Shown here piece after piece: positions 17,406-57,321 of a stretch of 64,000 bases of DNA. Position numbers and translations under genes: made by a program. Under the pieces are notes generated by a model, which saw only the letters and a program-made list of their open reading frames with translations, was not told the origin of the DNA and ran no database searches. The stretch's first letter is position 1. The number at the start of each line of letters is the position of its first letter. The DNA comes from Lepisosteus oculatus (lineage: Eukaryota > Chordata > Actinopteri > Semionotiformes > Lepisosteidae). The stretch spans positions 44,090,490 through 44,154,489 of the forward strand of contig NC_090709.1 in assembly GCF_040954835.1 (NCBI RefSeq). The letters run 5' to 3'.

Positions 17406-17518
17406 GTCAGGGTGGCCGAGTAGTCTAAGGCGCCAGACTCAAGGACATATATCTTTCCAGCTGGCTTGGGTGTTCTGGTCTCCAAATGGAGGCGTGGGTT
17501 CAAATCCCACTCCTGACA
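17406..17518 (+). tRNA. tRNA-Leu(CAA), intron-containing
   Basis: GTCAGGGTGGCCGAGTAG opens the gene, GACTCAAG contains anticodon CAA, and a ~29-base intron ending before TTCTGGTCTCC follows. The variable arm and T arm (GTGGG-TTCAAAT-CCCAC) precede TCCTGAC and discriminator A. All stems pair, so this copy looks more intact than its inverted partner at 2572-2684. The intron sequence has drifted between copies, as expected for a non-selected segment. Confidence 0.85.
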
Positions 17519-34897: not shown

Positions 34898-35320
34898 GAG
34901 CAGAATAGGCATGATGGCAACTCCACAGATATTCATTGAGATCCAGAATGATAAAGTTTTACTCAATGAGAGGGCAGCTGAAGTTCTGTCAGGAATGACA
35001 GGTGTTGCAGAGGTGATTGGCATTGTGGGTAAGCACAGAACTGGAAAGTCTTACCTGCTGTCTCGATTCTTTAATGAAGACCAAGGATTCAAAGTTGGAC
35101 ATGGGGTGGAAGGATGTACCAAAGGCATTTGGATGTGGTCCAGACCACACCCTTTCCACACAAATGCCTGTCTCCTGCTTCTGGATACTGAGGGATTGGA
35201 CAACTGTGAAAATAGGCTCATAACTGATAAGACTATATTTTTACTGACAACACTGCTGTCCAGCAGTATAATCTTCAACATCAAAGGATGTATCGACAGA
35301 AGCGCTATTGAAGAAATTCT
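34898..35320 (+). CDS. Exon 1 (coding): GBP G domain, P-loop to switch II
   Basis: The acceptor TTACCAG ends at 34897 and the ATG is at 34911 (a second ATG follows immediately). The exon encodes residues 1-136 plus two bases: P-loop GKHRTGKS (40-47) including the Arg-finger position R43, CTKGIWMW with switch-I T70, and LLLLDTEGLD with D92 and E94. It ends ...SAIEEI-CT|gtatcc. That donor is poor; no better one exists before the in-frame TAA at 35361-35363. Confidence 0.85.
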
Positions 35321-38300
35321 GTATCCTTGGGAAGAAAACATTTTAAACTATACAACAATATAAATTACTAAAAAAGAAATCTTGAGCTTTACATAATCCT
35401 CCAATTTCATGAGCAGATTTAGTTTTCAGTTTAAAGTGAATTCTGGGGTGAGCTGTGGTGATCTTTGTTTATGCTGATTTGTGTCACCCATGATGCCCAG
35501 TACTGTTACTGTACCAGCTGTGTGGAGTTGTCTAATTGGAGAATTAGTTAATATCATTGCTGGGTCACTTCACTTCACCCCTTTCAGTACTGAACCACAA
35601 GTACATATGTGCAGTCAGAGTGTTAATGAAGTCTGCTGTAAAATATTTTTTATAATCTTATGACAGCTTCTAATCATATTCTAATCATATGAAACTGAAA
35701 CTGAAACAATCTAATTATCTAGAACTGCAAAAGTCCAATAAAAGCCAAAATAAAAGCCAAAATCAGATTTCTGGAGCATTTCAACAGGACATTACAGGAA
35801 AAAAAGGACAATGAAGACTTATATTGGAATTTAAAACAAATATCAAAATTATTGTTTCTGACTAACAAAGAGATTATAAATAAGAAAATATTATTATCCA
35901 TGTTTAAACCAGGTGGTGCATTGGCACTGTGATTATCATTGCAGCCTTGCAGCACTGGGGCCCTTGGTGTAATTCCTGGGGTGCTCTCTGCATACTCTTT
36001 GCATGGGTTTCCTCCAGGTGCTTAACCAAGTGGTTTGATAGAGTTGGCCCTGGTGTGAGTGTATGCCCTGTGATGGATTGATGTCCTGTCCAGGGTGTAT
36101 CCTGCCTTTTGCACATTGATTCCTGGGTAGGATCCATCTCTCCTGGGACTCTGAAATGGACAAGTGCTTATTGTAAGTGATGCAGTGTTAAGAATTTTTC
36201 AAATAATAATAATAATAATAATTGCTTACACTTATATAGCGCTTTTCTGGACACTCCACTCAAAGCGCTTTACAGGTAATGGGGACTCCCCTCCACCACC
36301 ACCAATGTGCAGCATCCACCTGGATGATGCGACGGCAGCCATAGTGCGCCAGACCGCTCACCACACATCAGCTATCAGTGGGGAGGAGAGCAGAGTAATG
36401 TAGCCAGTTCATAGATGGGGATTATTAGGAGGTCATGATTGGTAAAGGCCAAGGGGGAAATTTGGCCAGGACACCGGGGTTACACCCCTACTCTTTTTGA
36501 GAAACGCCCTGGGATTTTTAATGACCACAGAGAGTCAGGACCTCGGTTTTACGTCTCATCCGAAGGACTGTTCAGTGATTTAAAAATATCAGCAATGTTA
36601 AACTCTATTTTTTAATTAAAGGCCATTATCAATGTGACGTCATAATTTTTTTTTTCCTGAAACCCAGTACAGCTGCCTCTTACAAGTTGTACATCAGATG
36701 TCTTTCGTCAGTGAGGAGAAAAATAAGTCACTTAAAGATTACCTTCCGAACTTGTTCTATATACTGATAAGAGATTTCCAGTTTGAAGAATTTGATCATG
36801 ATAAGTTTAAGGACAAGTTTCTGAATGCCTTGGATAAAGAAACAAAGACAAAATATAAGGAAGTCTTTGACAAAACAGAAATTCATATTCTGCCACAACC
36901 AGCTCTTGGGAAAGTGCTCAAGTAAGTATACTTTTTATTTATATATAATAATATAATAAACTATTCAGGAATTGCCAAATACTTAAACATTTTGTTCTTG
37001 TTTTTGAAAGTTTGCTGTGCTTTATATAATTTCTCCTTTCCAGTGTGTGTACAGTATTTGAAAGGAAGGGTCAAATATCATCTGTACTCAACAGACTCTG
37101 CTTACTTCTGTCTGTAATTTCCTCTCAAACTCAAACCTTCTGTTTTTGTTGTCCCCTCACATCCTTGCTAATGTATTAGGATTTGTTTTGGTGAGGAAAA
37201 AACAAGTGAGACACAATCTATTCATAGATCATCTTTTCTTCCTTATTTGCTTTTCACCTCTGCTAAACAGTTTTGTTTTCTGTCACTTAGTCTTACCCCT
37301 GTACCCCTATTATTTTGATTTGCCTGACATCATAATATGATATTAATTATCACTCTAATTATTATAATAATTATAACATTCTACTGTTCCTAAAATCCTA
37401 TTCTATCTTACCTGATGGATCCACATTTTAAGTAGTAAACTATAATTTATAAATTTAAGTAAACTATAATTTCTATTTACATTTCTTTATTATATGTAAG
37501 TTTGGTAATAAGAGCATGCTTACTTAAGTGTTTTTAACATATGTACTTGATTCTTCTTCAGAAAACTCCCGAAAATGAAAGATGAAGATTTAGACCATGA
37601 CTTTCTAACATCACTCAACACCTTTGTGACCACTGTTCGTGATAAACAGTCTGCTCCCAAGGCAGTGAAAAGTCTCGTCTGCACACCAGGAGGTAAAGCC
37701 TTCACAAGCAGCTCTGTTAAATGACAGTGGATATTCAGTTATGCGACTGTTGTCAATTACATCTCTTGATTTTCTTGTTCAAATTCTAAAAATGGAATGA
37801 GCTGACGTAAAAAAGCACTTTTTTTAGCACTTTGGCTTTACACTTTGGACAGTACACCTGGCTGAGGAACTGACAGTGCTGGTCAGAGATTAGTGTTGCC
37901 TCCTTACTGAAGAAGGATGAGCCAGAGGAACCTGCTGCAAAGGATGTTGGGGTGGAGGGAGGGGTCTGTTACATTGGCACATTGAAAATGTCTCCATTTT
38001 CATCCTTTGTTTTAGCATATTTATGGGACAAATTAACCTCTTTTATACTGGGAGGTAATAAAATAAAACACATGGTTTTGGTTCCCCAGAAGTATATAGT
38101 GTATTCAAGAGTGATCATTAAATGAGTAAACTAAGATGTCAATGCATAGAGAGACTTGGCTGAACCCATGTTCCCAGGCTATAGGGTGAGGAAACTGTAA
38201 GCCCAGTTCAGAGAAGAGTGGCTGAGGGGCTGGTGCAGAGGTGGAGACAGGGGGAGGAATGAATTCATGAGCAAGGAGGAGAAAACGTTTACGTTTACAG

Positions 38301-41300
38301 TATATACACTGATATAAACTGATCATTGTGTCAGTGCTGGTGTACATTAAATAAATAATAGTAAGGAAAAATTGTCACATTTTGTAGCAATAATGTTTTG
38401 TGATTGTATGTATGATTCTTCTTCTTATAATACCTTGAAGAAACTAGAATTTAAAATGCAGTCCTCATCAGAATTCAAAGAACGAATAATTACATTGCAG
38501 ATTTCTAATTGCAGTTTCATTTTTATTCCTCAGTTTCTGGTGAAAGATGTGATATTTTTCCTGAAAATACATATTTGCTTTGTTACATTTTCGTGCAGAA
38601 ATGTGTTTTTTTTTAAACAGGGACAACCAATGAATTTTTATATCATTAATGTTTCAAATAATTCTGAATGTTATCACTGCAATTGTTGCAATACTAATGT
38701 GTTTCATTACTGTATATTGATAGTAATAATATGAAAAGTGTGTTAATGAAAGAATGTGTATTTTTTAATTAAGGAAATTACTTCAGGAATGCTCACAAAT
38801 TAGAGCAGCTGAGGGAAAATCCATCTTTGTTTTTAATGTAAACTACATTAAAAATTAATTTTATTAATTAAAAATCAGTTAACCAAATGTAAAAACTCGT
38901 CTCAGCACTTATTTTACTGCTGAGAATATAAGAAATGAGATATAAGCAATCTTCTGGGAAGAAGTCAAAATGTAATCTCACCCCCTTCACCAGGTGGAAG
39001 ATTTCCCAGAGAGAAAGAAATGCTTCTGTAATATCAAAAAAGTCCATGTGGCCACTGACAGCAGCACCTGGAGGACACAAAGGTTCTCATTCAGTGAAGA
39101 AAGGAAACTCAGCCCCTTGGTCTTTAATTTCCTTTGACATGTTGCCCCAACTTTATGTCTGGGAATGTCAATCAGATGTGTCTCTTAATGCCTCAAAGTG
39201 CAAATATGGATCTCACACAAAGCATGATAAATATTAATGTTTACTGCCCTGTAATATTATTAAATATTTTTAAAATCCAGGAAATATTACAAAGAACTTT
39301 TCATTATTTTATTAAGTGTTTGAGGCATTAAAAGCATTACAGGTGCTGTCAGTTCCAGTAATTACTGGTTGTATTTTTATGGTTTTTCAGTATAAATATA
39401 CACATTTTGTTTGTTCTCATTTGCTTAATCTCAACATATCACCACCTGACATTACTCTTTTCCCCTCTGTGAAGCCTTTGTGGAGCTGGCTCGCTCCTAC
39501 ATCAACATGCTGAACAAACAAGACAATGTCTGTCTGACAGTAGCTGCTCTGGAAATGAATGAGGCCTGGATAAACAAAACATTTCTATTAGCAAAAGATA
39601 ACATGGAAAATATTGTAACAGAGATGGAAGTTCACCTTCCACACAATGAAGATGCACTGTGCAAAGACTACAATGAAAAATGTGACAAAGTAATTGAGGA
39701 GTTCATGAAAAAACTGGAATATACCAGCGGCACGAATCAAAAGGAAGAAAAGAAGAAGGAGTTACAGGTAAATCTAAAAAATAGTTTGTCATTAAATACT
39801 AAATACTAAATTAAAATATCAGTAGAGAATGAATACTGTACTTGATTTCATTGTTAAATAGTTCTAACTTGTTTACTTTGTTTATAAAAAGCATACACAT
39901 TTGCTACATATAAATATCAATAAGGCTGAAATGCTAATATTTTCTGAAAACCTGAATATCTCCCATCTTCCTAAATAATTTTTTAATCTAGTGAAAATAA
40001 TTACACTGTTTATTGAAGAGCAATGAAAGTATAAGTGTCTAGGTTTTACATTAATAGCTACTTCATTGCATACATGAATATTAATTAGTCAGCAGATAGG
40101 TGTGTTATATGTTCTTTGGGATAGCAAAATACTGAGCTCAAAGCACAGATGACCAATGTTAACGAGTTCCTTAAAAATCTGTATAAAAAGCCAAAATACA
40201 TGGGTTTTTTTATGCAAGAATGGTGAAGGTTTGCCCTGCTTGAGTAAAACAAATTGCCTGGTTAACAGCAAGACTCATTCATGCCATCAGTAGTCCAGGA
40301 AAAAAAAAACAGACAACCACAGACGTATTTACTGATCTTTAGGAAGTGATGTAATAGAGAATTAGAGTACCAGAGGTTAAAATCAACTGTGTCACATTAA
40401 GGAACAGCAATGCATTGCAACACATTCACTAATATTTCCCAAGTAACATTCGCCTCCTAAATTAATTTTCATCATGCCATGCTGTGTGTTGTATCACATT
40501 TCGCAAAAGTTTTTCAAATTGATTTATCATTAACAGAAAAAGAATACAAAGATGCACAAGTTTGATAATAAAATAAAGGGAAAGGTGACATTATGGTTTT
40601 GTATGCCTTAGTAGATATGGTCTAGTGCAGAAAAAGGAAAGAACAAAGTGTATATCTTCATTGAAGCAGCAAACATATTGTTAATTGAAACTTTAGGAAA
40701 AGCACTTTAGGAAACCTGTAATTATTGTTTATAATCCCTTTTCTTTGCTTATTAAAACATGAATTTCCATCAAATTTTACCATTCCACTTAGAAACTGAA
40801 AGACCAATGGCTGAATGAACTTTGTAAAAAGAATTGCATGAAAAGATTTACGAATCTAAAGGATAAATACGCTAGAGGTCTTCAGAATCACAAAGACAAA
40901 GAAATATTTAATGAAACAATGAAGAGCATAAAGAAGATCAGAGAAGAATACTTCATGTTTCACAGTAAGTTAAATTGTCGGCTCAATTTAATTGAAAACA
41001 ATACTTTTAAAGTTGTTTTATCAATTGTTACAGTTTACTTCTGTTTTTTTAAGAACATTTCAGTACACAAAGAATGAGCTCCCATGGTGCTCTTAGTTTT
41101 TGGCCTGACGTGCTTTGTGCACTTGAGTGTTTAAACTCAGTGTTTAAACTTGTTTCCACAAGGCTGTACCTTTAAACTGTTGCTTGGTATGACTGCGGAC
41201 CAGCAATTGACTTTAAGTTGTCTTGTGTCTTCCACAAACGCAGCAGAAATTTAATTCTCTGCTCAAGGATCGTGGTATATTTATATGATACAGTATACAG

Positions 41301-44300
41301 TATATACAGAAGCAGCCATTCAAGGTTCACAGTACAAACCCGTACAGCACGCAACTAACCACAAGCCACCTCGGCATATGCCACGGTACGTGATTGGCTG
41401 TCCAAAAATACCGACAGGGGCACTCGTGGTGCATTGGTCAGTAGTGAAAAGATTTAATCATTTAATCTGTTTACTGTGCACATTATAATCTGCTTAGTAT
41501 TGAATATTTATATGGAATTTTACCACTAAAGGGAAATTTTAGTAGCTGAGCATAAAAAGAAGAGGAACATAACGCATCTGAAGGTCATAAACGATATTAA
41601 TTTAGGAACATAAACATATTACTGTATGTAAACTGTACTGTATATGGCTGGTCTTGGTATTTTAAAGAAAAAATACACACCAGTATTCCATTTCTCCCTA
41701 AACATTTTAAGCATCAAAGTCTTACAGTACATGTGGTTATTTTGAAATGTTTTTACTTGCTCCTTCTGACCATATTACTGTACATTTATATACTTCGTGA
41801 AAAATTGATATTTTTAACCTTTGCTAATACGCTCGTTATCGGATAAACAAAAGCATACTTTTAGAATTGGATAAATAGGGAATATAAAATGGATTTGTGT
41901 ATCTAAATAAATTAATAACGGTATAGCTATAGTTCTATATTGATATGTGTATTGCTGTTTCAGTGCATGTCTTATGATTTGCCTTGGCGGCGTGACAGCT
42001 TAAGTGACTGATATGTAAGCATGAGGTTGGATGTTTCAATCCAGCAATCTCTGTGAGTTTTCTTTTGACAAATAAACATTTCTTTGAAAAACGAAAATAG
42101 CAAATATTATGGACACTACAGTATATTGACATTTTTTATATTGCTAAATATCACATGTTCGTACCGTATGTAGACAGTGGTACCACAGGTTGTAGGGCGT
42201 AAATCCACATGAGCCCGAAAGCCCTACATTAACGTTGTGCATTCGCCTGGTGCTGCGCGGTTTACATCTCTCTCTGCAGGAGTGCTGGCTGTGCCGAATT
42301 AAACCGGTCTCACTGTTTTTTTCAAAGTAGGATAGGACGAGTCTTCCAGCAAAAGACACTCCACCTTCCCCCACGGACACATGTTTTCTTAGTAAAACAG
42401 GTTCACAGTTCGAAGCTGTGTCAGTCTTCTGTGTAAAGAAAATCGGTTTGAACACCATGGGGGCTGTTTTTAATAAGCTGCTGAGTAAAGAATAGGAATT
42501 TTCCTGCTGTCAGCAGTATTGTGTATATAGTTTTTTGTACAGGCTGTGAAAAGTTTCACAAAAAGAGGTCTTTAAAATTAGGCTGGTCAAATGATTATTT
42601 TAATTCTTAAAAAATAAATCAAAAACAAGATATAATGTTGTGTTCCTACTTAGACATTGCACGACTTTAAAAGCTTAAAAAACAGGTTTCGATAGTTAAT
42701 AACCACTTTTAAAAAATGGGTGATTTTTCTTCCTCATGATCAGCTTAGAATCTCTGTTTATGCTGTAAGGTTTTTACTACTTAATTAAACGTTTAAAATA
42801 CACGAATTTCATAAACACAACACACGTTTCGATTAAAAAAAATAATATTCTGTTATCTTTCTGGTATGTAGAACAGATCAGCAGGTTTTTTTTCCCGTAT
42901 CAGAGGCTCTGAAAACAGTGTGCTGCCCACTGCACTGTGTCAGAGGGAGAGGTAGCATTGGAAAGGAGAAAGCGCAGAGCTCAATAATGCACAATGGCTG
43001 TGAAGCACCAATTGCGTTCATAACTTAGTGTTTAAAATTAAACAACGTAAATAATTTTCTTTGACTTCTAAGTCCCTTTATTATCATCAAGCACAGGTTT
43101 CTTTTTTGATGCCATCGTTAGACAAAGCAGGAACTTATTGTACTTTCTAATGACATTACATGTGGAAAGATTACAGATTACAGATTTTAATCGTCTTTAA
43201 TTTTGTTATACATTTTAGAAAAGTTTCATCTACGCATACACCACAAAACTATTTTCGATTGTATTTCTGAATGCTATGTATAAAAAAACTTTTGATGGCT
43301 GCATCTGTATTACAGACATTTACAACAAAGACATATCATAAAACATTTACATATATTGTTAAGTTATTACTTTAAATATATACTTTAAATTACTGTAAAT
43401 ATATTACTTTATTTTATATAACACCTTTACAACTGGCATCTCAAAGTAATACAGGATTCTGGCTATCAAATTCTGAACATATTGGAGATTGCTCAGTGTG
43501 GAGTTAAATAACCTAGTGAACAGGATGTGCATCTATTAATTGTGTTGAAAAAAGCCTTTCTTGATTTCTCTAGTTCCTAGTTTCTCTATGTTCCCTTTAA
43601 AATAAACGATTATCCCACAATGCTGTGTACTACATGGCCGGTAGGGAAACTAAAGGGAAATTTTAGTAGCTGAGCATAAAAAGAAGAGAAGCATAAAGCG
43701 TGTGATGGTCATAAACTATATTAATATAGGAACTGCATCAGAGATATTTTTTTAACTGCATTACATTGGGGAGAATCAGTATAGCTTACATTTATATAGA
43801 ATGTATAGAAATACATTTTTCCTGCATCAAAGTTTAATTCGTTCAGATTGCCCTACATTACAGCCCCAGTGCTGCAAGGTAGCAATGCTAACCACTTCAC
43901 CACCATTAAAAATGGATGGATATCTTAGTTATCTTTCTAATTCAGAGGTTTGCATGCATAATTTAATTTTGAGAGCCACTGAGACATCTGGTACTACTGT
44001 TGTATTTATGAAAAAAAAACATACAAAAAGCATACTAACAACTGTGCCATCCTATTCCTTAGTTAATACATTTTATTTTTATAAACAGTTAACATTTTTA
44101 GCAAAATATTTTGAATTATATTTACCCTATTTTTTCTTTAATTTTGTATTTAACTTATTTTATGATAGAAAGATTTAATGTACATTTGAACAATAAAAAT
44201 ATGGTATTACAAGATGTGGGGAAAAGTGCAACAATTTATTACAGTGCTAAATTTAATATTATTGATTACTAATAGTTTATGCTAACACCTAACTTTCTTA

Positions 44301-47300
44301 AGTAGATGTATTAAAAACAGGTGGGTAGCTGCATCAGCATGCATAGGCTGCAAAGGAACAAGTAATAGGTTTATTCCATGCTGAAAAAAAGAAGAAAGAG
44401 AACACAACGTTTCGGCCGTGGAGCCTTCTTCAGGTCTTGACACCTGAAGAAGGCTCCACGGCCGAAACGTTGTGTTCTCTTTCTTCTTTTTTTCAGCATG
44501 GAATAAACCTATTACTTGTATTAAAAACAGGTTTGCCCAGCCTAAGAGGGGGGGTCAGCTGACACTCCTTCATACACTCAAGTGAAAAATTAATAATGCC
44601 AATATAAACTTCAAATTCTCTCTCGCTTTGGCGATTTTGAAAAAAGTATTGAAACAAGAGAGTGAGTGTTTTTTTTAATTCCTGGTGGAATCGGGCTTCC
44701 ATTAGAATCAAGTCATAGGTTTATTCCATGCTGAAAAAAAGAAGAAAGGTACACATTCCATAAGAATCAGCACCCTTATATAGCGCCTTTATATAGCGCC
44801 TTTAAAGGTGGCTTCTCCTTGCACTTTGACAGATCGTCTTTAAATTAATTTTTGATTTAAAGTTTGACAGTAAATGTTTATATTGTAACGCATACAGCCT
44901 CCATTTCTTTATAACATTTTTAAAAATCGTTTGCGCAGTCTAAGGGGGGGGGTCTGCTCTCATTGACAGCTGACACTCCTCCATACACTTAAGTGAAAAA
45001 TTAATAATCCCAATGTAAACATCGTATTTACAATTTGTTGATAATAAAAATGTTAAGTTCTCTAAAGCTTTCTCAGTCACGTACGATAGTTTACCCATGG
45101 AGCTGTGTAAGCATGCGAAGGCAGCAAAATATCAGCTAAATTTGAAGTTGTGACACCGAAAATATTATTAATAACCTTTTAAATCTGAAGGGAGATCTAA
45201 ACGGATCCCCACACGATCAGAGGGCAAGACGGTGATTACTCATTGTTATTAAAAAAATGACTTAGATTCGAACATGTTGTGATATTTAGAAATATAAAAA
45301 AGTCAATTAATTGTCCATAATATTGCTATTTTATTTTTTCAAAGAAATGTTTGTTAAAAGAAAATGCATAGCACTAGCTGGATTTGAACAGCCAACCTCT
45401 CACTTAGAAGTCAGGCACTTAGACCATCACACCACTCACATGATGAGTGGAAAATTAAATATTTTCGTTTTCAAAGAATGTGGACCAGGGTAATACTTTG
45501 AGTTTACAGCTTGTCCAAGGTCATTCGTTATTAATACTATTAGTAATATCTTTGGTAAAGACTTTGATGGCGACAGCTCAAACGCTGTACATGAGAGGTT
45601 GAGCTTTATTAGCTCCACCTTGCGGAAATTCCAGATACTATTATTTTACTTGCGGTACCATGTGGTATTATGCAAGAATATACGGTATTAATACAGTATT
45701 ATACGGTAACTTGAGTTATACCGCGACAAGCGTTATAACGCAGTATCGCCCGGTTGTTTTGAATGGCTGCTTCTGTAACTCCACCTGGCGGTTTTATAAG
45801 GTGATTCCGGATACTATTAACATAATCTAATTTCCAAGAGGTAAAATGCGGTATGACCTGAAATGAATTGTTATGACGCATGTTTGATGCAACATGCCCA
45901 CCGCGTTGTACCGCAGTGTACCCCGCTTATTTTGAATGGCTGCATCTGTAGGACAAAATATTTAATCTCTGCATCAAAGCATGAAAAATGATGTTGGAAG
46001 CCTTTATCATTGGATAAATTGAAAGCACTGGTCAGTTGAATTTACAGATTATTTTAAGAGCTCATCTCACATTGATTGAAACACTTGTGTGTGTGTTTTT
46101 TTTAAGTATGAATACTTATTCAATCAGTTATTTTCTGGTTTATATCCATAATTCATTTGGCAGGATCTGTAGAATTGGCTACACTTTGATATTATAAAGT
46201 ATTTTGTGCAGATAAATGGCATAAAATCCCAATTAAATACTCAATTATTCCATATAGTAACCCAATAATAGATAAATATATCCAACGGGAGTGAATACTT
46301 TTGATAGATAATGTATTAATTATATAAATAATGAGAAAGCAGCAGAGTGAATTCTGAGGTTTACAGAAATATTTGGGCCATTATTTTGAAGAAATGACTT
46401 CCATCACCACCATCAGAATGACAGTGACCCGAAACACACCATCCCAGCAAACCTCGAGTTATCTCAGCCAGTCCAAGTCAAATCCAATTGAGCAGCATTT
46501 AATATAATAGGGGGGGGGGATAGAAAGAATGGACAAAACTATCCTGTTTTGCTCATTAAAACATCTTATTAAAGCATCTCAAGTGATTACGTTTTTAACT
46601 TAAAGTGCATGTGTCTCGGTACTTATGTTGACTTGAAATCAATGGAACACAAAGTAAGTTGTTGTTATAATCTGATCAAACGTATGCATAACTTACCCAG
46701 AAATAACATATGGACGATTTACCAGGAATAAAATAACTCCCCAGAGTTATGCAAGATTTACATAAATCCAACATTATGTAAAATCCTGACCTGGGCGAAA
46801 TAAAGACTTATTAAATATGAATTTTCTTTTAGCTTTATTTACACATTTTAACAGACAGCCTCCAAGTAAAAACCAAATGCTCCTACCTTCTGAAAGTACA
46901 AACTGAAAACCTTGAAAAATGGGCTGAATTATTCTAATTATTTCCATAATCTTAGATGTAGAAGTCAGACATGTTGGTCTGTAATCACACTTGGGTCAGT
47001 TTCTTCTTGTGGCTGGGCTCTATACTGGCAGTGAGCCTGACTGGAGCAGCTGTTGGCTCATCAGAACCCCTTCACTGCAGAATGTTATTGTGCTCTTCTG
47101 CCATGCCTTCCTGATTTTCTTGTTGAATAACCTCATGCCTTATAGGAGAGTCAGGGCAAGCTATAGGATCACCTTGTATTCTGCATTTTATTGAATACTC
47201 TGGTGAGATTCTGCCTTGTTAGAGTATTCATTAATTTTAATTGATTAAAAAAACAATATAATCATTTCTTACAGGTGGTTAGTAATTTTTAAGTTAAAAT

Positions 47301-50300
47301 AAAGTTTCCTTAACTCAGTATATCTTGTGGAGAAGGGGACACAGAATCTCAGTCTGGTTACCAAAAAAAAAAATGTTCAAATATTTAGTTGTTAGTTTAC
47401 AGTTTTCTTTCCTACTGATGGCAGAGCTGAAATCCGATGGAAGTAGATCCCAGACACAGTCCAATGTTTTAAGCAAGCCTTCCTTCAAGCCAATTGAAAA
47501 GCAGTTCAAAAGGCTTACACATTAAGCACTAATACCTTCAACACTGTGCTATGGTTTACCTGTTCTAGAGAATTACCTTTATCAGTTCATGTGATATGAA
47601 TGTCATGAATGTGAACTCAACAATCTCTCCTTTCTGGTGTGAGATAATAGCAATTTATTTAGGTTCTAGGACTCACAGAATACAAAGAGATTTCACTTCT
47701 GACAGCTTAGTCTTTCCTGTTGTACATGCAAAGATGTTCTTTCTATCCAAGATCCAAAACTGTATGAGATGTATCCGATTAGTTTGACTTTTAGTGCTGT
47801 CCTAAAATTATACAATCATTATTTTCATTTGAACTAACCTTTCATTTTTTTAATAATCCTGTCCTGTTGTATATTGAATCGACAAAACACTGTGATTAAT
47901 GAATACAAAGTTTTGCTATTTTTTACTGGTGCTTGTACTGTATTACAGGGGTTATCATGCATTAAGATTCCATAACAAAAAAACATAAATGAACATAAAA
48001 GGTATCAGTCATTCACTTGAGAACTATACATGTGTTTATAAAGACACATTTTCTGAAGATTGTGTACATCTTTAAACATTGATATTCACAGGCTAAGTTT
48101 TTTTTTTAACGTGCTTTATGCTGTTGGAGTAAAGCACTTAAAATGTTTTCATTTAGGGTCTGATGATATAAGCAAGACTGTGTTTTCTGAACTTGGCACC
48201 CTTCACCTGGACCCTTTGCTTAAAGACTCCTTGAAGGTAATTGTCATTAAATTAAAAAACTTCTTATTGAATTGTTTGGTCCACCGGTTTACTGAAAGAC
48301 CTGTTACAGAATAGTGGTACTATTGATACAGATGCAGCCATTCAAAATGCGCGGTACAAACCCGCGGTACGGTAATCTACCCACAAGCCACTGCAGGGCA
48401 CCGCGGTAAGTGATTGGCTGGCCAAAATGACCGACAGGGGCACTCGTGGTGCATTGGTTGGTAGTGAAAAGATTTATTTCATTTAATGTCTTTACTGTGC
48501 ACATTTTAATCCGCTTAGTTTTGAATATTTATATGTAATTTTACCACTAAAGGGAAATTTTAGTAGCTGAGCATAAAAAGAAGAGGAGCATAACGCATCT
48601 GAAGGTCATAAACGATATTAATTTAGGAACATAAACATTACTGTATGTACGTAAACTGTACTGTGTACTGTACTGTACTTGGTAGTTTAAAGAAAAAATA
48701 CACACCAGTCTTCCATTTCTCCCTAAACATTTAAGCATGAAAGTTTTATGAAACGGTACCCAAATATGTGATTGCTGTATAGGATGAATTTTAATCTTAA
48801 AAAATTATTTAACACGAAAATTAAGCTGTTTACATCTTCCGCCTGAGAACAGTCACCCGTTGCTACCCAACGCAGAAACACAGCCACTAACTAGCAAAGA
48901 GAGGACATTAGCTAGCCAATATGATAAAGAAATAAATGATTATTTTGTTTATTTCTTTTGCACATTTATTTGAACATTTCCATCGATTGTACAAGCACTT
49001 GTAAACTGTCCAATCCCTAGTTCATCAGGCATTTTCTTTTATGCTGCGGGCATTCTCCCGGTCTGGTGCCGGTCTGTGTCTTCTAGGATATAATGCCAGC
49101 GAACTCTTGTTTTTATGTCCACTATAACAGACAATCTCCTTTGCTTTTAACCGAGCGTCTAACCCCTCTGATTGGAGAAAAAAGACGTGCTGGCTTGCTA
49201 TACATACTGTACCAGGAAGATGATTTCTTTTTATTCGAAACGTGTATTTTAAAAGTTTAAGAAGTAAAAACCTTACAGCGTACACAGATTTCTAAACTGA
49301 TCAGGATCGTTATCTTTGTCTTATCCATAATGTTCACCACTCTGTCCAGCAAATTAATAATAAACTTTATTTTATATAGCATTTTAAACTAATAAGTAAT
49401 TAGATTGCTTATAAACCTAATCACTTTTTCTACATAAACACAGCGTACTTGCTCTCTGAAAATGCTTTTTCTTTTTATTTAGGCTCAGATTTCAACTATA
49501 GATTGTATTATTATAAACTTTCTTGGAAAAATGTATTTTATGTAAACCATGTTTGCTATTAATTCATTTAGGGCTAGAATATGTTCATTGTCTTCCAATC
49601 GAGTCGAGTTGACATTAAAAGCTTGCCACGCCCGGACTGTTACACCAACGCATTAGCATGTTAAAGCGATTTCATTGAGGAGCCTAGCTTTCTTAACTAG
49701 TAAGTACTGTACTTCCTTGGTTTTGGAGGGGGAGGTGTCTTTCGCTAGAAATCTCGCCCCCTTCTACTTTGAAAATACCTGTGAAACCGGTTTAATTCGT
49801 CACAGCCAGCACTCCCGCAGAGAGAGGGGTTGTACTCGTTAATGTCTTAGCCGGAACACATCATTATATCTCATTTTGTATTTCTATAAAAAAATCGTTT
49901 GCCCAGCCTAACACTATTGTTGTTACTGTTTTTATCCTGTAAAGCGCTTTGAGGAGCACAGCTTTCTCACCACTTAGATTACTTTTTGATACCATCCTTA
50001 CACAAAGCAGAAACTTCTTGTATTTTCCGATGACATACAAGTGGAAAGATTACAGATTTTAATCTGCTTTTTTCTGAACCAGGGAAAATCTGATCATGTT
50101 TCTCTATAACAATAAAAAACTTTATTTTACATATCACCTTTAAAAGTGGCATCTCAAAGCAATACAGTAGATGTAAACCACAGATTACAGAGTAAATACC
50201 CAGACAAACGCAAACGCGTTTTTAATAAAATTATTTTATTCATTCAGCAGAGAGAGAGAGAGAGAGAGCGTAAAACCTGGGCGTAACAGCTGTTCCTATT

Positions 50301-53300
50301 TCTGATCACTTGCTCTCTGGATAAACGTCTCACCTGTCCTGTTCTTTGTTTTCCTAATTTGCTGATTATGCCTTCTGCGATCCACTCCTGCCCTCACACC
50401 TAAAGAAGACTATATTAAATTTCTTTGCGCGGTCCATTGTGCAATTAACCCTTGTATGTGCTGTCCTTAAGGTGACATCACATAAAGGTGATATGTAAAA
50501 TAATGTTTTTTTATTATTGTTATAGAGAAACATGATCAGATTTTCCCCAGTTCAGAAAAAAAGATCTAAAGTATACTAGTTTGTCACTAGTATACTTTTA
50601 ATACAGTCTTTGCTGTGCTCTAGAGGATCCTTGTGATATTTCGGGATCTGGTTGAATGATAAGTGTCGCAGTTTAAATAATTTTCGTAGTTGGAAATTAT
50701 TAAACGCTCTGTTAAAAGCAAGAGAGTTTTTGTGTCCGTTACAGTAAAAGAAAATGCCTGAAAGAGTAGGGCTTGGACAGATTCCAAGTGCATTTTTGCA
50801 ATTTACGTTGCATTGTGCATTGTGCCGCTGTAATACAGTTTAAAATAATTAAAACTCTAAACTCTATCAGCTTTATTTATGGGTTGCAATTTTAAAAAAG
50901 TCAAAAAATGCAATGCAATTTAGAGCTTTCTGGCAAGAGGAGACACCCAAATTAATAATGTAACATGACACTGTGCATGAACAAGGTTATACTGCTATTT
51001 CCTTAGATACGCGATTAAAAAAAAAAAAACATTTAAATCCTTGGCGGAACACATTTCATAAGAATCAGTGCTTTTATATATCGCCTTTAAAGGTGGCTTC
51101 TCAAAACGCTTTACAGGATAAAAACAACAATAACAGCAACAACAACAATATTGTATTTCATTGCACTTTGACAGATCGTCCTTAAATCAATTGTTGACTT
51201 TTCTCTCTTTACTACTGAACTTGTTTGGATTGACTGAGCTCCGTTCTGTACCACACAATGATCCCCCCAGAGTCTCTGCCCCGGGTGATTTGGTTTTTTT
51301 TTGACAGAGGGTAAAAAACTCTCTCTCTCGCTTGCCCTCCCCCCCATGTATTGTCTGTTTTTCTTGTGCTGTCCTTTGACAAAACAAGCCTCGCCAGATA
51401 ATGTGAATCTAAACCTGTTTTTCTAGCTTTTAAAGTCGTGCAATGTGTAAGCGGGAACACATCATTATATCTTACATATGAAAAATACATAATATAGCTC
51501 CCAAACAAACGCAAACCTGTTTTTAATAAGATGCTTTTATTCACTCATAATCCGACAATTTCAGGAAGACTAAGGGAGGACTAAAGGAATTGTCATCTGT
51601 TGTTGAAGCTCTGTGAGCTCGGTGACTTTGAGACCACTTGTTATCCCAGGTTGTTTGAATCGCCACAATTCAAATAGAAAAAAAAGAGCTGACTGACAAG
51701 ATTTATGATGCGGCTGTTAATGTTGAATTTAAAAAAAACACTTTGCCTGAAGTTTGTTGCATTGCTTGAAAAATAACTTTATTTCGAGAGACTGTATAAG
51801 TAATTCAAGTGTTTTTTTTTTAACTTCCTGAAAAAACAACTAATAATTTAACTATATGTGCAAATGTTTTATGATATGTCGCTGTTGTGAATGTCTGTGG
51901 ACATGTGCTGGCTGGACAGGAGGCTCTACTGTACACAGAGAGGGGCGGGAGGGGGGGACAAGCCGATACATACTCATAGAGTTTGATTAATAGGAAATAT
52001 AATATAAAAATATAGTACTAAAAATAAGATACACTCTACAGACATTCACAACAGCGACTGTCAGAAGATAGGACACAGCGGCTCAGACACCCGCTGAATG
52101 GAAAGGGGCACTTTAATGTTCTGTAAGGCTAATACTAAAGCCAATACTTTAATATTCTTTTCTGTATGTTTAACAATAGTGGTTACTGGCCTAATTCGGC
52201 CCTGCTCCCGTTGTTAGGTGTTAATGTGTTGTTGTTAAGTGTGAATTTGTACCTGTTTCCCTGAGGTCTGGCTTTTTTTCTGGAAAACCATAACTCTGGT
52301 CTTGTCCAGATTGACTGTCAGCGCCCAGGTCTGACAGTGCTGCTCCAGCAGTGCCAGGTTCTGCCGCAGCCTCTGTTCTGTGGGCGACAGCAGGACCAGG
52401 TCGTCTGCAAAGAGCAGGAACTCGATTTCTGTAATTAATGCAGATCAGTAAATCAAGGGACAAAACAATTATTGCGCCCGGCTCCTCAATGGGCTTTGAC
52501 GTGCTCATGCGTTGATTTAACAGTCCGGGTGTGGCAATGTTTTTTATTATTGTTACAGAGAAACATGATCAGATTTTCCCCAGTTCAGAAAAAAAGATCT
52601 AAAGTATACTAGTTTGTCACTCTTCTCATCCCCTCTTTGCTAAATGGCTTTTGAATAGAGTCACATGAGGAGAGAGGTGAAACAGCCCTAAACAGCCCTG
52701 TCGCAGTACACGGATATAATTATATCTTATTAATTTCTTTAGATACGCGATTCTTTTAATACAGTCTTTGCTGTGCTCTTGGGGATCCTTGTGATATTTC
52801 GAGCTCTGGTTGAATGATAAGTGTCGCAGTTTAAATAATTTTCGTAGTTAGAAATTATGAAACGCTCTGTTAAAAGCAAGGGAGTTTTTATGTCCGTTGC
52901 AGTAAAAGAAAATGCCTGACAAAGTAGGGCTTGGACAGATTCCAAGTGCATTTTTGCAATTTACGTTGCATTGTCCATTGTGCTGCTGTAATACAGTTTA
53001 AATTATTCAAAGTCTAAACAGTATCAGCTTTATTTATGGGTTGCAATTTTAAAAAAGCCAAAAACCGCACTCAAAATGCAATTTAGAGCTTTCTGGCAAG
53101 AGGAGACACCCAAATTAATAATGTAACATGCCACTGTTTGTGCATGAACAAGGTTATACTGCTATTTCCTTAGATACGCGATTAAAAAAAAAACATTTTT
53201 GAATCCCTGGCAGAACACATGCCATAAGAATCAGCGCTTTTATATATAGCCTTTAAAGGTGGCTTCTCAAAACGCCTTACAGGATAAAAACAGCAATAAC

Positions 53301-56300
53301 AGCAACAACAATATTGTATTTCATTGCACTTTGAAAACCAAGTAATACCTTAACTATATGTGCAAACGTTTTATGATATGTATCTGTTGTGAATGTCTGT
53401 GGAGTGTATCTTATTTGCCTGTCTGTCCTGGCTCTCTCGCTCGCCCTCCTCCCTCTCTCCCTCAATTCAATTCAATTCAATTCAAGGTGCTTTATTAGCA
53501 TGACAGATGGATACAATCAGTGTTGGGTATTTACTTTGCTTTGAGATGCCACTTTTAAAGGTGATAAATAAAATCAAGGCTTTAACTTGCTTTAACTCCG
53601 CAAGTCTGAGTTCTCGTGTCTGTCCTATCCAAACTTGAAAGTATTACAATATGTATCTTTATAGCAGGTGGTGTACAGCTTTTTAGTATAGATTACACTT
53701 TTCTAAAATGTATTTAAAAAATAAAAACGATTACAATCTAATCTTTCCACATTTGATCCCAAGATCCCAAGAAAAATAAATCTAAACGGGGAGAAAGCTA
53801 TGCTGAAAGTTTATTAAGATACTTAGAAGACAAAGATATCAATTTATGTTGCATTTGTCTGATTGTGAATCAAAAAACACATATATTTAAACCCGCGTTT
53901 GCGATTTAAATCAAAACGCGATTTAAATCAATATAAATGTTTATATTGTAACGCCTAGGTGACTATTCATTGTTATTAAAATGACTTAAATTCGATCATG
54001 TTGTGATATTTAGAAATATAAATTTGTTTGGTGCGAGTGAGGTTTTATTTAATCTCTGACGCAGGGAAACGTTTCATTTTTTCAAAGAAATGTTTGTTAA
54101 AGGAAATTCATGGCTCCAATAGGATTCAATCACAGACCATGTGACATGGGAGTCAGGAACCTAACCCACTGCGCCACCAGCAAGGTCACATGCAGAGTGC
54201 TGAAAAAGCACTACAGAAACATTATCAACAGACAATGTACAGTGTGTATTATTCTTGTGTTGCGGTACATGAATATAATTATATCGTTATTAATTTCTTT
54301 AGATACGCAATTCCATATAATATTCCCTTTTAATCAAATTCTAAAAGTATGCTTGTTGACTCCGGTATCACGTTAGTTAAAGACTTCGATGCTTAAAATG
54401 TTTAGGGAGAAATGGAATATTGGTTTGTATTTTTTCTTTAAAGTACCAAGACCAGCCATATACTGTATGTTTATGTTCCAAAATTAATATCGTTTATGGC
54501 CTTCACACGCGTTGCAGTATTCTCCTATTCTTTTTATGCTCAGCTACTAAGATTTCCCTTCAGTGGTAAAATTCCATATAAATATTAAATACTAAAACGG
54601 ACACCATAAAGACGTTTACTGTAAATCTTTCTACGACAGACCAACGGACCACGAGTGTCCCTGTTGGTCAACCAATCACGTATCGTGGTACCGCGCGTCA
54701 TCGTGCGTCACAATGCGCGACGCCGTAGCCAATTACCTCTGGTACGTGTCTGTACCGCGCACTTTGAATGGCTGCATCTGTATGTTTTCTTTAAAGTACC
54801 GAGACCAGCCATATACTGTATGTTTAAGTTCCAAAATTAATATCATTTATGGCCTTCACACGCATTACAGTATGCTCCTATTCTTTTTATGCTCAGGCAC
54901 TAAGATTTCCCTTCAATGGTAAAATTCCATATAAATATTCAATACTTAAACGGGCACAGTAAAGACATTAAATATACATATACATACTGTATACAGTACA
55001 GTTTGCATATGGTAATATGTTTATGTTCCTAAATCAATCTCTTTTATGAGCATGTGAAAGGCATGGTGAATCACTGTACTTTGCATTATTGGAAACAAAT
55101 GCGTGATTGCGAAATGCTGTGGTGTTACTTTTACAAAGACGGTCAATGAAAAAATGAATGTGGACAAAGGCAATACTTTGTTTACAGCTTGTCCAAGGTC
55201 ATTCATTATTAATACTATTAGTAATATCTTCGTTAAAGACTTTGATGGCGACAGTTCAAACATGAGAGGTTGAGCTTTATTAACTCAGGAAATTCCGGAT
55301 ACTATTATTTTGCTTGCGGTATTATAGGAGAATTTACAGTAACTCGCGGTAGACCGCGTAAAGCGCACCACAAAATAATGCGGTATCGCCCGCGCATTTT
55401 AAATGGCTGCATCTGTATATAAATCACAACGTCTTTCACTAGTACAAACTTATGTGCAAAAATTGCTTTGGAAAATAAGATGCACAACATAAAGCATTGG
55501 AGAAATGCAAGAACACATTAAGAAACAGTCTCATGACTTGAATGATCTCCTAATTTTGCAGTGCAGTGTTTTGTCACTGTCACTTATTAAGTAGACCACA
55601 GATTTTGCTTTTAATTATCTTGCAGTCTGTGGGAGAAATTGTTTTGAAATTGGAATTTACATGAGCTAGAGTTTACAGTTTTTCAGGGTTGAACCTAATT
55701 TACTCTCCAACTTTTTTGGAAAAAAGCTAAATATTTTAGAGGCCACAGCACACCAAATTTATATATTAGTGTAATAAAAAATGTATATGCTTTTTTATAA
55801 TATGGTTTAGTCATAATAGATATAATAGGTCATGATTTTAAACATTTAACTCACAACGTAAAACAAATATCTGAATTTCACATTAATTAATCTGTGGAAG
55901 AATGTCAATACTTTTCTGAGGATGAATTAACAGACATAAACTGTTACACTAAGGAGAAATCAGCTGAATGGATCTACTATCACTATCTTACCATCATCAC
56001 GGATTCACTGAATAATACTTTAGGTTCTTTGTCATTTTTTCCAAAACTGTAATTTATGATGTTTTAAATGAACACAACAGATCTGGTAATTGCATCTTAA
56101 CGTAAAACATTTGAAAACACATAAAACTAAATCAGTATAAATATTTTATTTTTTTATTATGATAGCAGTTGGTACGCTATCAAAAAACTAAATAAACTGC
56201 ATTTACCTTATTAATCACAAATTGGAAAAAAAAATTAAACCTGAAGGCACATGAAATCTGGTAAATATGTTCTGGATGTGGGTAAATAACGCAATGAGAA

Positions 56301-57321
56301 ACCTAAGTATAGTCTGATCAAGAACCATTGATCACAGGACCATTTTCAGGGTCCTGTTTTGTGTGTCGAAGTACATGAGATATCAAAATGGTACGAATAA
56401 GATACAATGTTTTATTATGTAGTAATGTTCTGTAAATGTATACTAATTGTATAATATATAATATCTAAAATAATTCTGATTCTTCTAGAGGTTGTATACA
56501 ACTGTGTTCCTTTATGTTTAGTACAATGCATTGTTTTTTTTTCTAATTTCTGTGTCTTTCAACAGAAATTCACATATTACACAGTCCTTCTGTACCACAA
56601 AAAGAAGATAGAAATTGACAACTTTGTGGGATCTATGAAAACCCTGGCAGAGGGCATTGAAAAAACCCACAAGGGCACTGCAGTAGGCAGCATTGTGGGA
56701 GCTGGTGTTGGAATTGCAGGATCAGCTGCTACTATTGGTGGGATACTACTTGCTCCTTTTACTGCTGGTGCCTCTTTAGCACTTACAGTTGGAGGGGTTG
56801 TTGCAGGAGTAAGCGGTGGTGCCACTGTCCTAACCTCAGATATCACTAAGTACTTTGTTACCAAGAACAAGACAGATGATGCTAAAAAAATTCAGGAAGA
56901 AATACAGAAACACATGAGGGAGCTCCAAAACATAATTGAATATGTTGGCCAAATGATGAAAGTATTTAGAGAAGATCATGCTTCTTACATTGAAAATATG
57001 GCAAATAATATGCTGTGTCAGTGCTTCCAGGCTGTGAACTTACTTGGGCCTTTAGATGACATTATAGCTGCGGGGGCCAGCGTTGCAGGCCGCGTTGTCA
57101 GAGTGGCTGGTGGAATTCTTGCCGCAGCCACCATGATTTTTGATATAATAATCATTAAAAATAAAGCAAAGGAATTCAAAGATGGTTCTGAAATTGCTAA
57201 ACAAATAAATCATTTGATAACAGATGTTGAAAAGGATCTCAATCGAATTGATGAGCACATACAAAAGTTTCAAAAACTAACTAGTACAATTTGCTGTGAT
57301 AATTTTGAAGATCTTCCTTGA
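34911..57321 (+). CDS. GBP-ApoL fusion protein (696 aa, 7 coding exons)
   Basis: Exons 34911-35320, 36673-36921, 37562-37692, 39475-39767, 40793-40964, 48157-48236 and 56566-57321 join with phases 2, 2, 1, 0, 1, 0 to a 2091-base frame with no stop. Residues 1-~220 form a GBP large-GTPase domain (G40-S47 P-loop, T70 switch I, D92-TEG, R170-D171). Residues ~220-419 are the GBP helical region, with the same intron positions as classical GBPs. Residues ~446-696 are an ApoL domain with two long glycine/alanine-rich hydrophobic segments. GBPs are interferon-induced GTPases that coat pathogens; ApoLs insert into membranes. The GTPase domain is shorter than the usual ~280 residues and there is no CaaX prenylation motif, so membrane contact would come from the ApoL part. 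The main alternative is two neighbouring genes. mRNA evidence is lacking, and exon 6 is the weakest link. Confidence 0.75.
35912..36165 (+). mobile_element. tRNA-derived SINE
   Basis: The head GTGGTGCATTGG through CCTTGCAGCACTGGGGCCC and GGTGTAATTCC is a tRNA-like region. The body contains GATGGATTGATGTCCTGTCCA and GGGTGTATCCTGCCTTTTGC and ends near CTGAAATGGACAAG. This layout is familiar from abundant fish SINEs. A reverse head fragment lies at 43855-43907. Confidence 0.7.
36203..36580. repeat. Interspersed repeat with AAT microsatellite and TATATAGCGC motif
   Basis: An (AAT)n tract is followed by CTTACACTTATATAGCGC, CTCAAAGCGCTTTACAG and a ~350-base body ending in CTCATCCGAAGGACTG. Short relatives of the TATATAGCGC / CGCTTTACAGGATAAA part occur at 44770, 51075 and 53240. 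The class is not known to me. Confidence 0.6.
36673..36921 (+). CDS. Exon 2: GBP G domain with RD motif
   Basis: It encodes residues 137-219 and two bases of 220. LPNLFYILIRDF (161-172) aligns with the FFPDFVWTLRDF region of GBPs; R170-D171 is the guanine-specificity RD motif. TEIHILPQPALGKVLK matches the segment before the GBP helical region. The donor AA|GTAAGT is strong. The insert between the RD motif and this segment is shorter than in mammalian GBPs. Confidence 0.85.
37562..37692 (+). CDS. Exon 3: end of GBP G domain
   Basis: The acceptor is TTCTTCTTCAG and the donor G|GTAAAG. KKLPKMKDEDLDHDFLTSL corresponds to the LEKLQDEELDPEFVQQV region of GBP1, and VRDKQSAPKAVKSL to the short linker before the helical domain. 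The phases (2 in, 1 out) fit exons 2 and 4. Confidence 0.85.
37693..39474. other. Intron, nothing recognised
   Basis: No repeat or RNA is recognised. It ends in the pyrimidine-rich acceptor CTTTTCCCCTCTGTGAAG. Confidence 0.6.
39475..39767 (+). CDS. Exon 4: GBP helical domain, first part
   Basis: It encodes residues 265-361, completing codon 264. FVELARSYINMLNKQDNVCL aligns with the GBP segment LESLVLTYVNAISSGDLPCM, where the helical domain begins, and VAALEMNEAW with the following ALAQIENSAA helix. It ends KKEEKKKELQ|GTAAAT in phase 0, matching the GBP exon boundary after the QKELAAQ segment. Confidence 0.85.
39768..40792. other. Intron, nothing recognised
   Basis: This is AT-rich non-coding sequence ending in the acceptor ATTCCACTTAG. 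Confidence 0.6.
40793..40964 (+). CDS. Exon 5: GBP helical domain, second part
   Basis: It encodes residues 362-418 and one base of 419. LKDQWLNELCKKNCMKRFTN and IKKIREEYFMFH correspond in length and position to the LEKKRDDF...LKKKYYEEPRKG exon of GBP1, with the same phase-1 end. The donor A|GTAAGT is strong. The sequence is rich in Lys and Glu and predicted helical. Confidence 0.8.
41307..43307. mobile_element. TIR foldback element, copy 3 (2.0 kb)
   Basis: It starts CAGAAGCAGCCATTCAAG (one or two changes from the family TIR) and ends TTTGATGGCTGCATCTG, with TA on both sides. It lies in the intron between exons 5 and 6, on neither strand coding. It includes a tRNA-like module with constant block (41984-42098, +). 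The 42590-43280 part recurs, diverged, at 60105-60720. Confidence 0.7.
41984..42098 (+). ncRNA. tRNA-like module plus constant block
   Basis: GGCGGCGTGACAGCTTAAGTG and GATGTTTCAATCCAGC form a tRNA-like head with a B-box-like core, followed by ACAAATAAACATTTCTTTGA. The head differs from those in the other copies while the following block is shared. Confidence 0.45.
43308..44306. repeat. Mixed relics in the exon 5-6 intron
   Basis: 43640-43740 resembles TIR-family interior (compare 41520-41610). 43855-43907 is a reversed SINE head. 43915-44225 matches 12625-12915 of TIR copy 1. No exon is recognised. Confidence 0.5.
44323..44516. mobile_element. Penelope-like 3' end as a head-to-head palindrome with 16-bp TSD
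   Basis: 44358-44435 and 44442-44519 are perfect inverted copies (78 of 78 bases) around a 6-base spacer. Each is the 3' end of the Penelope-like element seen intact at 59610-59745 (CTGAAGAAGGCTCC, CCGAAACGTTG, CAGCATGGAATAAACC). The unit is flanked by TGTATTAAAAACAGGT at 44307-44322 and 44517-44532, a clear 16-base target duplication whose right copy overlaps the last bases of the palindrome. Minus-strand sequence 44323-44357 extends further to the element end than the right arm does. Confidence 0.8.
44533..45331. repeat. TIR-family interior with another Penelope tail fragment
   Basis: 44705-44755 carries TAGGTTTATTCCATGCTG and GAAAAAAAGAAGAAAGG, a short Penelope-like 3' tail in reverse, also present at 20825-20870. 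The rest matches interior parts of the larger TIR elements (TTATATAGCGCC, AAACGTTTATATTG-type segments). No gene is seen. Confidence 0.5.
45332..45432 (-). ncRNA. tRNA-like module plus constant block
   Basis: On the minus strand GATGGTCTAAGTGCCTGAC and GGCTGTTCAAATCC form A- and B-box-like parts, followed by TTTAACAAACATTTCTTTGA. The A box is Leu/Ser-like. The stems are incomplete. Confidence 0.5.
45433..45948. mobile_element. TIR-family right ends (two, at 45775 and 45948)
   Basis: TTTGAATGGCTGCTTCTG ends at 45775 and TTTGAATGGCTGCATCTG at 45948, each followed by TA. No matching left ends were found between 43308 and here, so these are truncated or nested copies. The preceding GC-rich, CGGTAT-rich sequence is the usual sub-terminal region. 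Confidence 0.55.
46088..46318. mobile_element. Tc1-like terminal relic
   Basis: TATGAATACTTATTCAATCA and, ~215 bases on, GTGAATACTTTTGATAG match the end region of a common Tc1-type element. It is diverged, with no transposase in this piece. Confidence 0.4.
46405..46510 (+). pseudogene. Tc1-like transposase relic (DDE region)
   Basis: 46414-46440 encodes QNDSDPKHT, the conserved Q-D/N-N-D-P-K-H motif of Tc1 transposases. CAGCCAGTCCAAGTCAAATCC then AATTGAGCAGCA corresponds to the SQSPDLNPIEHLW segment with a one-base shift. Only about 35 codons are readable. Confidence 0.6.
46511..48156. other. Intron 5-6, 3' part, nothing recognised
   Basis: Only short ORFs without motifs are present. It ends in the acceptor GTTTTCATTTAG before exon 6. 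Confidence 0.5.
48157..48236 (+). CDS. Exon 6: short linker between GBP and ApoL parts
   Basis: It completes codon 419 and encodes residues 420-445 (SDDISKTVFSELGTLHLDPL...). The acceptor TTTCATTTAG and donor AAG|GTAATT are good, and the phases 1 in and 0 out are exactly what is needed to connect exon 5 to exon 7. It sits where classical GBPs have the short exon following the helical region, but sequence similarity to that exon is slight. Confidence 0.55.
50060..50280 (-). repeat. 3' fragment of the BEN-like gene region, reversed
   Basis: It is the reverse complement of about 23083-23290, including CAAACGCAAACGCGTTTTTA and a GA microsatellite (50251-50268). The BEN-coding part itself is not present. 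Confidence 0.7.
50597..51165. repeat. Direct duplication inside TIR copy 4, unit 1
   Basis: It matches 52754-53325 closely, from CTTTTAATACAGTCTTTGCT through the GCTTTACAGGATAAAAACA region. Parts recur inverted in copy 2 near 20340-20700. Confidence 0.75.
52230..52440 (-). pseudogene. Captured LINE reverse-transcriptase fragment, second copy
   Basis: Near-identical to 21458-21660, with the same flanks and same orientation, including the coding strand of the LLFADDL motif. It is a passenger of the TIR element. Confidence 0.7.
52754..53325. repeat. Direct duplication inside TIR copy 4, unit 2
   Basis: Partner of 50597-51165. The two differ by scattered substitutions and small indels, so the duplication is not very recent. 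Confidence 0.75.
53461..53530 (-). mobile_element. LINE 3' tail with (TTGAA)n
   Basis: On the minus strand a GCTAATAAAGCACC segment runs into (TTGAA)n, the 3' end and terminal microsatellite of a common fish LINE of L2/Maui type. Only ~70 bases remain. Confidence 0.5.
54076..54180 (-). ncRNA. tRNA-like module plus constant block
   Basis: On the minus strand GGTGGCGCAGTGGGTTAGG (A-box-like) and GTGATTGAATCC (B-box-like) precede TTTAACAAACATTTCTTTGA. The head is the same type as at 19904-19970. Confidence 0.55.
55416..56565. other. Intron 6-7, 3' part, nothing recognised
   Basis: This unique-looking AT-rich sequence ends in the acceptor GTGTCTTTCAACAG. I found no alternative first exon or promoter that would make the ApoL exon a separate gene, but could not exclude one. 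Confidence 0.5.
56566..57321 (+). CDS. Exon 7: ApoL domain and stop
   Basis: It encodes residues 446-696. After a short basic stretch (YHKKKIEID), LAEGIEKTHKGTAVGSIVGA and GILLAPFTAGASLAL are the hallmark ApoL segment: an amphipathic start, then a hydrophobic Gly/Ala hairpin (about 480-535). A basic coiled-coil-like region follows, then a second hydrophobic segment (IIAAGASVAG through AAATMIFDIIII, about 610-645) and a C-terminal helix with a leucine/isoleucine heptad-like pattern. ApoL proteins form anion or cation conductances in membranes. The stop TGA is at 57319-57321. The domain is complete by comparison with the family. Confidence 0.9.
   Translation, partial: KFTYYTVLLYHKKKIEIDNFVGSMKTLAEGIEKTHKGTAVGSIVGAGVGIAGSAATIGGILLAPFTAGASLALTVGGVVAGVSGGATVLTSDITKYFVTKNKTDDAKKIQEEIQKHMRELQNIIEYVGQMMKVFREDHASYIENMANNMLCQCFQAVNLLGPLDDIIAAGASVAGRVVRVAGGILAAATMIFDIIIIKNKAKEFKDGSEIAKQINHLITDVEKDLNRIDEHIQKFQKLTSTICCDNFEDLP

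Follow-up and report, generated by a model that had tools for sequence, protein, structure and literature searches.

The window analysed here, a 64,000-nucleotide stretch of the Lepisosteus oculatus genome (contig NC_090709.1), contains predicted exons for the GTPase and helical region of a guanylate-binding protein (GBP) and, downstream in the same orientation, an exon with an apolipoprotein L (ApoL) domain (Table 1). Rebuilt from the window and joined in order, the seven exons comprise 2091 bases (696 codons plus a stop) separated by six introns, all GT-AG. The preliminary description of this DNA had claimed seven exons of compatible phase and an uninterrupted 696-codon frame, and both were recovered with GT/AG borders at every junction. 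An assembly gap between the GBP and ApoL halves was considered and rejected, as the window is free of non-ACGT letters (no N).

Table 1. Features of the predicted GBP-ApoL gene; positions are counted from the first letter of the window.
Feature	Position	Strand	Details
5' UTR end	34898..34910	+	Adjoins ATG; acceptor before 34898 scores 13.2 bits (top 0.16% of window AGs)
Exon 1	34911..35320	+	GBP G domain, residues 1-136; G1 GKHRTGKS, switch-I Thr70, DTEG
Intron 1, apparent U12-type	35321..36672	+	Lies within the G-domain coding sequence; donor GTATCCTT; acceptor has branch-like TTCCTGAAA about 12 nt upstream
Interferon-response-element-like triple motif GAAACTGAAACTGAAAC	35691..35707	+	Intron 1; pattern hits at 35691 and 35697
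Exon 2	36673..36921	+	Residues 137-219, remaining G domain, IRDF (G4-like); open frame, splice borders; within Pfam GBP match 14-247; acceptor top 17%
Exon 3	37562..37692	+	GBP residues 220-263, aligned to GBP1; donor and acceptor each top 2% (acceptor top 1.4%)
Exon 4	39475..39767	+	Predicted GBP helical (middle) domain, residues 264-361, aligned to GBP1; donor top 0.5%, acceptor top 1.4%
Exon 5	40793..40964	+	Helical region, residues 362-418; donor ACA/GTAAGT top 2%, acceptor top 9.5%
Putative bridging exon 6	48157..48236	+	Residues 419-445; donor top 0.8%, acceptor top 7.6%
In-frame extension of exon 7	56489..56565	+	Acceptors 56489 (4.7 bits) and 56522 (7.4 bits)
Exon 7	56566..57321	+	ApoL domain, residues 446-696, plus stop; acceptor top 1.4%

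Splice sites and the first intron

Donors and acceptors were scored with generic, hand-typed matrices and ranked against the GTs and AGs of the window. Five of the six donors fell within the top 2% of window GTs on the ordinary donor matrix, and the acceptors spread from the top 1.4% (exons 3, 4 and 7) to the top 17% (exon 2). The donor of exon 1 (TCT/GTATCCTT) scored -3.1 bits on this matrix and is therefore credible as a U12-type site only. We take GTATCCTT to be the exact donor consensus of U12-type (minor spliceosome) introns, a motif that accounts for the one weak donor of the gene, and intron 1 is apparently removed by the minor spliceosome. The string RTATCCTT occurs at two places on the plus strand and two on the minus strand of the 64 kb, and a branch match of at least 7/9 precedes 3.3% of the 3851 AGs. 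Reading this donor as a sign of a pseudogene was rejected because it carries the U12 motif. A literature search combining U12-type introns with guanylate-binding found no report. At the 5' end, a very strong acceptor is found 13 nt upstream of the ATG and implies that a further, non-coding 5' UTR exon precedes the GBP start codon.

The triple GAAACT form GAAACTGAAACTGAAAC in intron 1 was found once in the window and in none of 100 Markov sequences, and strict matches to interferon-response-element-like patterns numbered seven in the window, with further ones at 18198 and 18520 among other positions; the 100 Markov sequences averaged 1.1 and none exceeded 5. The triple motif hints at interferon control of the gene, without proving it.

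Several other features were noted in the window. ORFs recur in inverted orientation (2443-2724 on the plus strand with 17366-17647 on the minus strand, and 4657-4929 on the minus strand with 15054-15413 on the plus strand), and tRNA matches were found at 2572-2684 and 17406-17518, inside the segments 2443-4929 and 15054-17647; this arrangement suggests that the two segments form a multi-kilobase inverted duplication. The minus strand carries a retrotransposon fragment at 8110-9459, in which domains of the integrase core, H2C2 zinc-binding and reverse transcriptase RNase H types were recognised. Just 3' of the ApoL exon, a 275-amino-acid ORF (58618-59445, plus strand) matched a GIY-YIG-like domain at 19.7 bits, below the Pfam cutoff of 22.6 bits; we assume that it may belong to a Penelope-like element.

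The GBP and ApoL parts of the product

The full product matched the Pfam GBP family at residues 14-247 (E=1.3e-38; the GBP-type G domain PF02263 reached 133.1 bits against a cutoff of 21.1), far beyond chance, and exon 1 matched it by itself (E=1.8e-31). The hallmarks listed in the preliminary description (GKHRTGKS, the switch-I Thr, DTEG and RD) are all present, the motifs GKHRTGKS, TKGIW, DTEG and IRDF starting at residues 40, 70, 92 and 169 respectively. Against the PDB, exon 1 found GBP5 best (E=2.5e-28) together with GBP1 and GBP2 chains. The best match of the whole product was 6k2d, a GBP1 chain of 481 residues, and its matches were ordered with GBPs leading (best E=7e-35), followed by one chain named 'LOC432253 protein' and then by atlastins (best E=1.6e-6). 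All NCBIfam matches of exon 1 lay below the family cutoffs, and a scan of genome contigs, a collection other than of fish, with this exon gave 34 pattern matches and no relative.

The phmmer alignments extend past the G domain and enter the helical one, placing product residues 388-392 with modest confidence opposite residues 425-430 of the GBP1 chain. Continuing the alignment by eye beyond that point, the end of exon 5 would fall at about the end of the GTPase-plus-middle-domain part of GBP1. Pfam reported no match of the product to GBP_C (PF02841) at E<=0.1. In the alignment with 1dg3, the position of GBP1 Ser73, a residue with a role in hydrolysis, is taken by Gly68, and this substitution may weaken the predicted GTPase activity. 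Read through its donor, exon 5 (ORF 40793-41077) gains 37 residues, including a hydrophobic run, before a stop at 41077; were the intron retained, the run (within 40965-41077) would give a short GBP what looks like a tail anchor.

The ApoL assignment rests on a Pfam match of the full product at residues 456-594 (E=1.9e-17; profile positions 58-196 of 298), likewise far beyond chance, to which exon 7 by itself added a match to PF05461 that scored 75.1 bits where the cutoff is 25.9 (E=8.6e-21; profile 59-196 of 298). The preliminary description had called residues 446-696 a complete ApoL domain; the homology was borne out, but the match spans profile positions 58-196 of 298 only, and residues 595-696 lie outside the reported Pfam stretch. 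Hydropathy exceeded the threshold in the ApoL part only, in stretches that overlap across 484-534 and in one at 622-643. Bacterial alpha-pore-forming proteins were matched weakly, below threshold, by the hydrophobic region of exon 7: NCBIfam MakA scored 22.2 bits, the cutoff being 320, and two PDB chains had E=0.19. Such matches fit a membrane-inserting hairpin and prove nothing. The PDB search with exon 7 gave four weak matches (best E=0.047), a single-sequence fold model was uninformative (mean pLDDT 46.5), all NCBIfam matches lay below the family cutoffs, and none of 31 pattern matches in viral contigs, again a collection other than of fish, was a relative.

The interval between exons 5 and 7

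Since exon 5 ends in phase 1 and exon 7 starts at 56566 in phase 0, the two are out of frame with each other, and the compatibility of the phases therefore rests on exon 6 or on the acceptors at 56489 and 56522, either of which permits exon 5 to be joined directly to the ApoL exon with the frame kept. The 80-bp exon 6 has no homology that we could find and overlaps none of the repeats found in the window. On the plus strand of the 15.6-kb interval no other candidate reaches its quality; the opposite strand holds two that do. Markov sequences (n=200) gave a mean of 0.135 such candidates, with at least one in 11% of them. Six real control pieces gave three candidates in two pieces, both from the minus strand and both overlapping the interval, so that they are not independent of the opposite-strand count; the two plus-strand pieces gave none. 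Exon 6 thus beats chance modestly only, although the fusion would survive its loss because the 56489 and 56522 acceptors keep the ApoL frame.

No C-terminal GED helices or CaaX tail of a GBP were recognised between exons 5 and 7, where the letters of 42001-47899 and 48501-55499 were covered by ORF lists and scripts. A tblastn search with the human GBP1 C-terminus (hand-typed query) gave no match at E<=10 anywhere in the window. On the plus strand from 40965 to 56600 there are 72 open segments with a length of 40 amino acids or more, and none contains a charged helical segment of the GED type; the most charged 40-residue stretch among them (21/40 KREDQ) lies in a low-complexity RERERER run. One of the 72 segments, that starting at 54582, has a CaaX-like ending, an ending found in some GBPs only. 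A GED that had escaped recognition in the interval was judged unlikely, given the tblastn null with this query and the lack of such a charged segment, although a strongly diverged one could have been missed. Candidate GBP-terminal exons numbered 12 on each strand, the plus-strand list including the read-through of exon 6 and the 56522 form of the ApoL exon, and candidate ATG first exons for ApoL (at least 10 amino acids, phase-0 donor of at least 7 bits) numbered two on this strand against three on the control strand. The introns flanking exon 6 are 7.2 and 8.3 kb long, 55% of the interval matches elsewhere in the window, and 45 AATAAA/ATTAAA motifs lie between exons 5 and 7; such long introns, repeats and poly(A)-like hexamers could hide a gene boundary. 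The interval also holds a perfect inverted repeat (44358-44519) with 78-nt arms, 100% complementary, around a 6-nt spacer.

The best reading of the sequence is that a single gene fuses the GBP GTPase and helical region to the ApoL domain, for which we would put the probability at roughly two in three. This fusion, proposed in the preliminary description, is favoured because nothing recognisable as a GBP tail exon separates the GBP exons from the ApoL exon that follows them in the same orientation; in addition, the last GBP exon has a good donor and the ApoL exon a strong acceptor. A joint transcript is presumed. The part of the proposal that fared less well is the bridge, exon 6 standing near chance, and the stop reached by reading through exon 5 also counts against it. 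Both of these points would suit a pair of adjacent, equally oriented genes. The first would be a GBP gene that either terminates early or has 3' exons diverged beyond recognition, and the second an ApoL gene of its own, whose first exon, small or non-coding, would lie in the repeat-rich interval. A short GBP without a GED could stop at 41077, candidates for GBP-terminal exons and for ApoL first exons do exist, if at chance level, and human GBPs and ApoLs are encoded by separate gene families. The Met at product residue 469 could likewise start an ApoL protein after a non-coding exon, but this first in-frame Met lies 23 residues into exon 7, and a GBP gene of its own is further opposed by the good donor closing exon 5 and by the interval's lack of both GED similarity and a GED-type charged helical segment. 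On balance we consider two genes rather unlikely.

It is very unlikely that the locus is a decaying or non-functional remnant, in which a GBP gene lost its 3' end by transposon insertion beside an ApoL fragment: the extent to which the interval matches other parts of the window would accord with such a history, but seven exons remain open across 2.1 kb with splice sites that include a U12 donor, and the GTP-binding loop is intact. A different alternative accepts the fusion, and so overlaps with the reading preferred here, and concerns function only, the protein working like an atlastin to tether or fuse host membranes and not to kill microbes. Atlastins consist of a GTPase, a helical middle domain, a membrane hairpin and an amphipathic tail, and the ApoL hydrophobic segments are placed where the transmembrane hairpin of atlastin lies; atlastins also come next in the PDB after the GBPs and the 'LOC432253 protein' chain. 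The product is nevertheless much nearer to GBPs than to atlastins in sequence, as the E-values given above indicate, and an atlastin-like role appears unlikely.

Possible working and relation to known systems

If the exons do form one gene, the C-terminal effector domain of a GBP (helices alpha12-13 and the tail) would be replaced by an ApoL domain, giving one chain in which a short linker (419-445) connects a GTPase and helical region (1-418) to a putatively membrane-active ApoL module (446-696). On the presumed target, a microbial or vacuolar membrane, GTP binding might lead the G domains to pair, either among themselves or with full-length GBPs, and the resulting array would present the ApoL hydrophobic helices (484-534 and 622-643), leading to their insertion and to disturbance of the membrane. 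GTP-dependent assembly would in this way concentrate ApoL on the membrane. GBP1 carries a C-terminal prenyl anchor; because ApoL occupies the place of the GBP1 effector helices and of this anchor, attachment to the membrane would depend on ApoL itself or on a full-length GBP as pairing partner. The fused gene and this GTP-driven mechanism of membrane attack, taken jointly, are put forward tentatively, with a little less than an even chance of both being right. It is possible, to the same degree, that a natural fusion has brought a GBP scaffold and an ApoL effector together in one interferon-inducible fish machine in which GTP-driven assembly drives membrane attack.

The proposal draws on human cells, where GBP1 forms a coat on Gram-negative bacteria and opens their outer membrane, which gives APOL3 access to the inner one; a non-hydrolysable nucleotide blocked both the GBP1 coat and killing by APOL3 (PMC12091997). 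The cooperation invoked in the preliminary description is real (PMC12091997), and the fusion protein may work by analogy with it.

Like human GBP1, GBP2 and GBP5, the predicted product has the P-loop, switch-I Thr, DTEG and RD, and a probable helical domain follows in the same order, whereas no GED (alpha12-13) or CaaX tail was recognised, an ApoL module stands in its place and the Ser73 position is Gly. With human APOL3 and APOL1 it shares an ApoL domain match (E=8.6e-21 for exon 7) and a hydrophobic hairpin region; in contrast to the ApoL family, it has a GTPase in front, no start exon of its own was recognised, and the match covers profile positions 58-196 of 298 only. The atlastins likewise unite a GTPase and a middle domain with membrane segments in a single polypeptide, but their sequence match is weaker and their membrane module another one. 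The predicted product is thus a GBP-ApoL variant, neither a canonical GBP (no GED recognised) nor a canonical ApoL (partial profile, no start exon).

Zebrafish Gbp3 and Gbp4 have GBP domains followed by a C-terminal CARD, with a FIIND also drawn in a figure legend (PMC4932187). They resemble the product as fish GBPs with an extra C-terminal effector module that mammalian GBPs lack, but the module is FIIND/CARD in zebrafish and ApoL here, where it replaces the C-terminal helices. If real, the gar protein would be a domain-swap variant comparable to these GBP-CARD proteins. No description of a GBP-ApoL fusion protein was found in the literature searched, and such a protein may already be present unnoticed in databases.

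Proteins that cooperate as separate chains in one lineage sometimes occur as a fusion elsewhere, and this fusion, if true, would unite in cis the activities that GBP1 and APOL3 exert in trans in human cells. It would then be evolutionary evidence, of an independent kind, for a GBP1-APOL3 partnership that is either ancient or selected more than once, and would provide a single-chain system in which to study how a membrane is passed on from the GTPase assembly to the ApoL effector. It would also mean that fish GBPs accept varied C-terminal effectors, ApoL as well as CARD.
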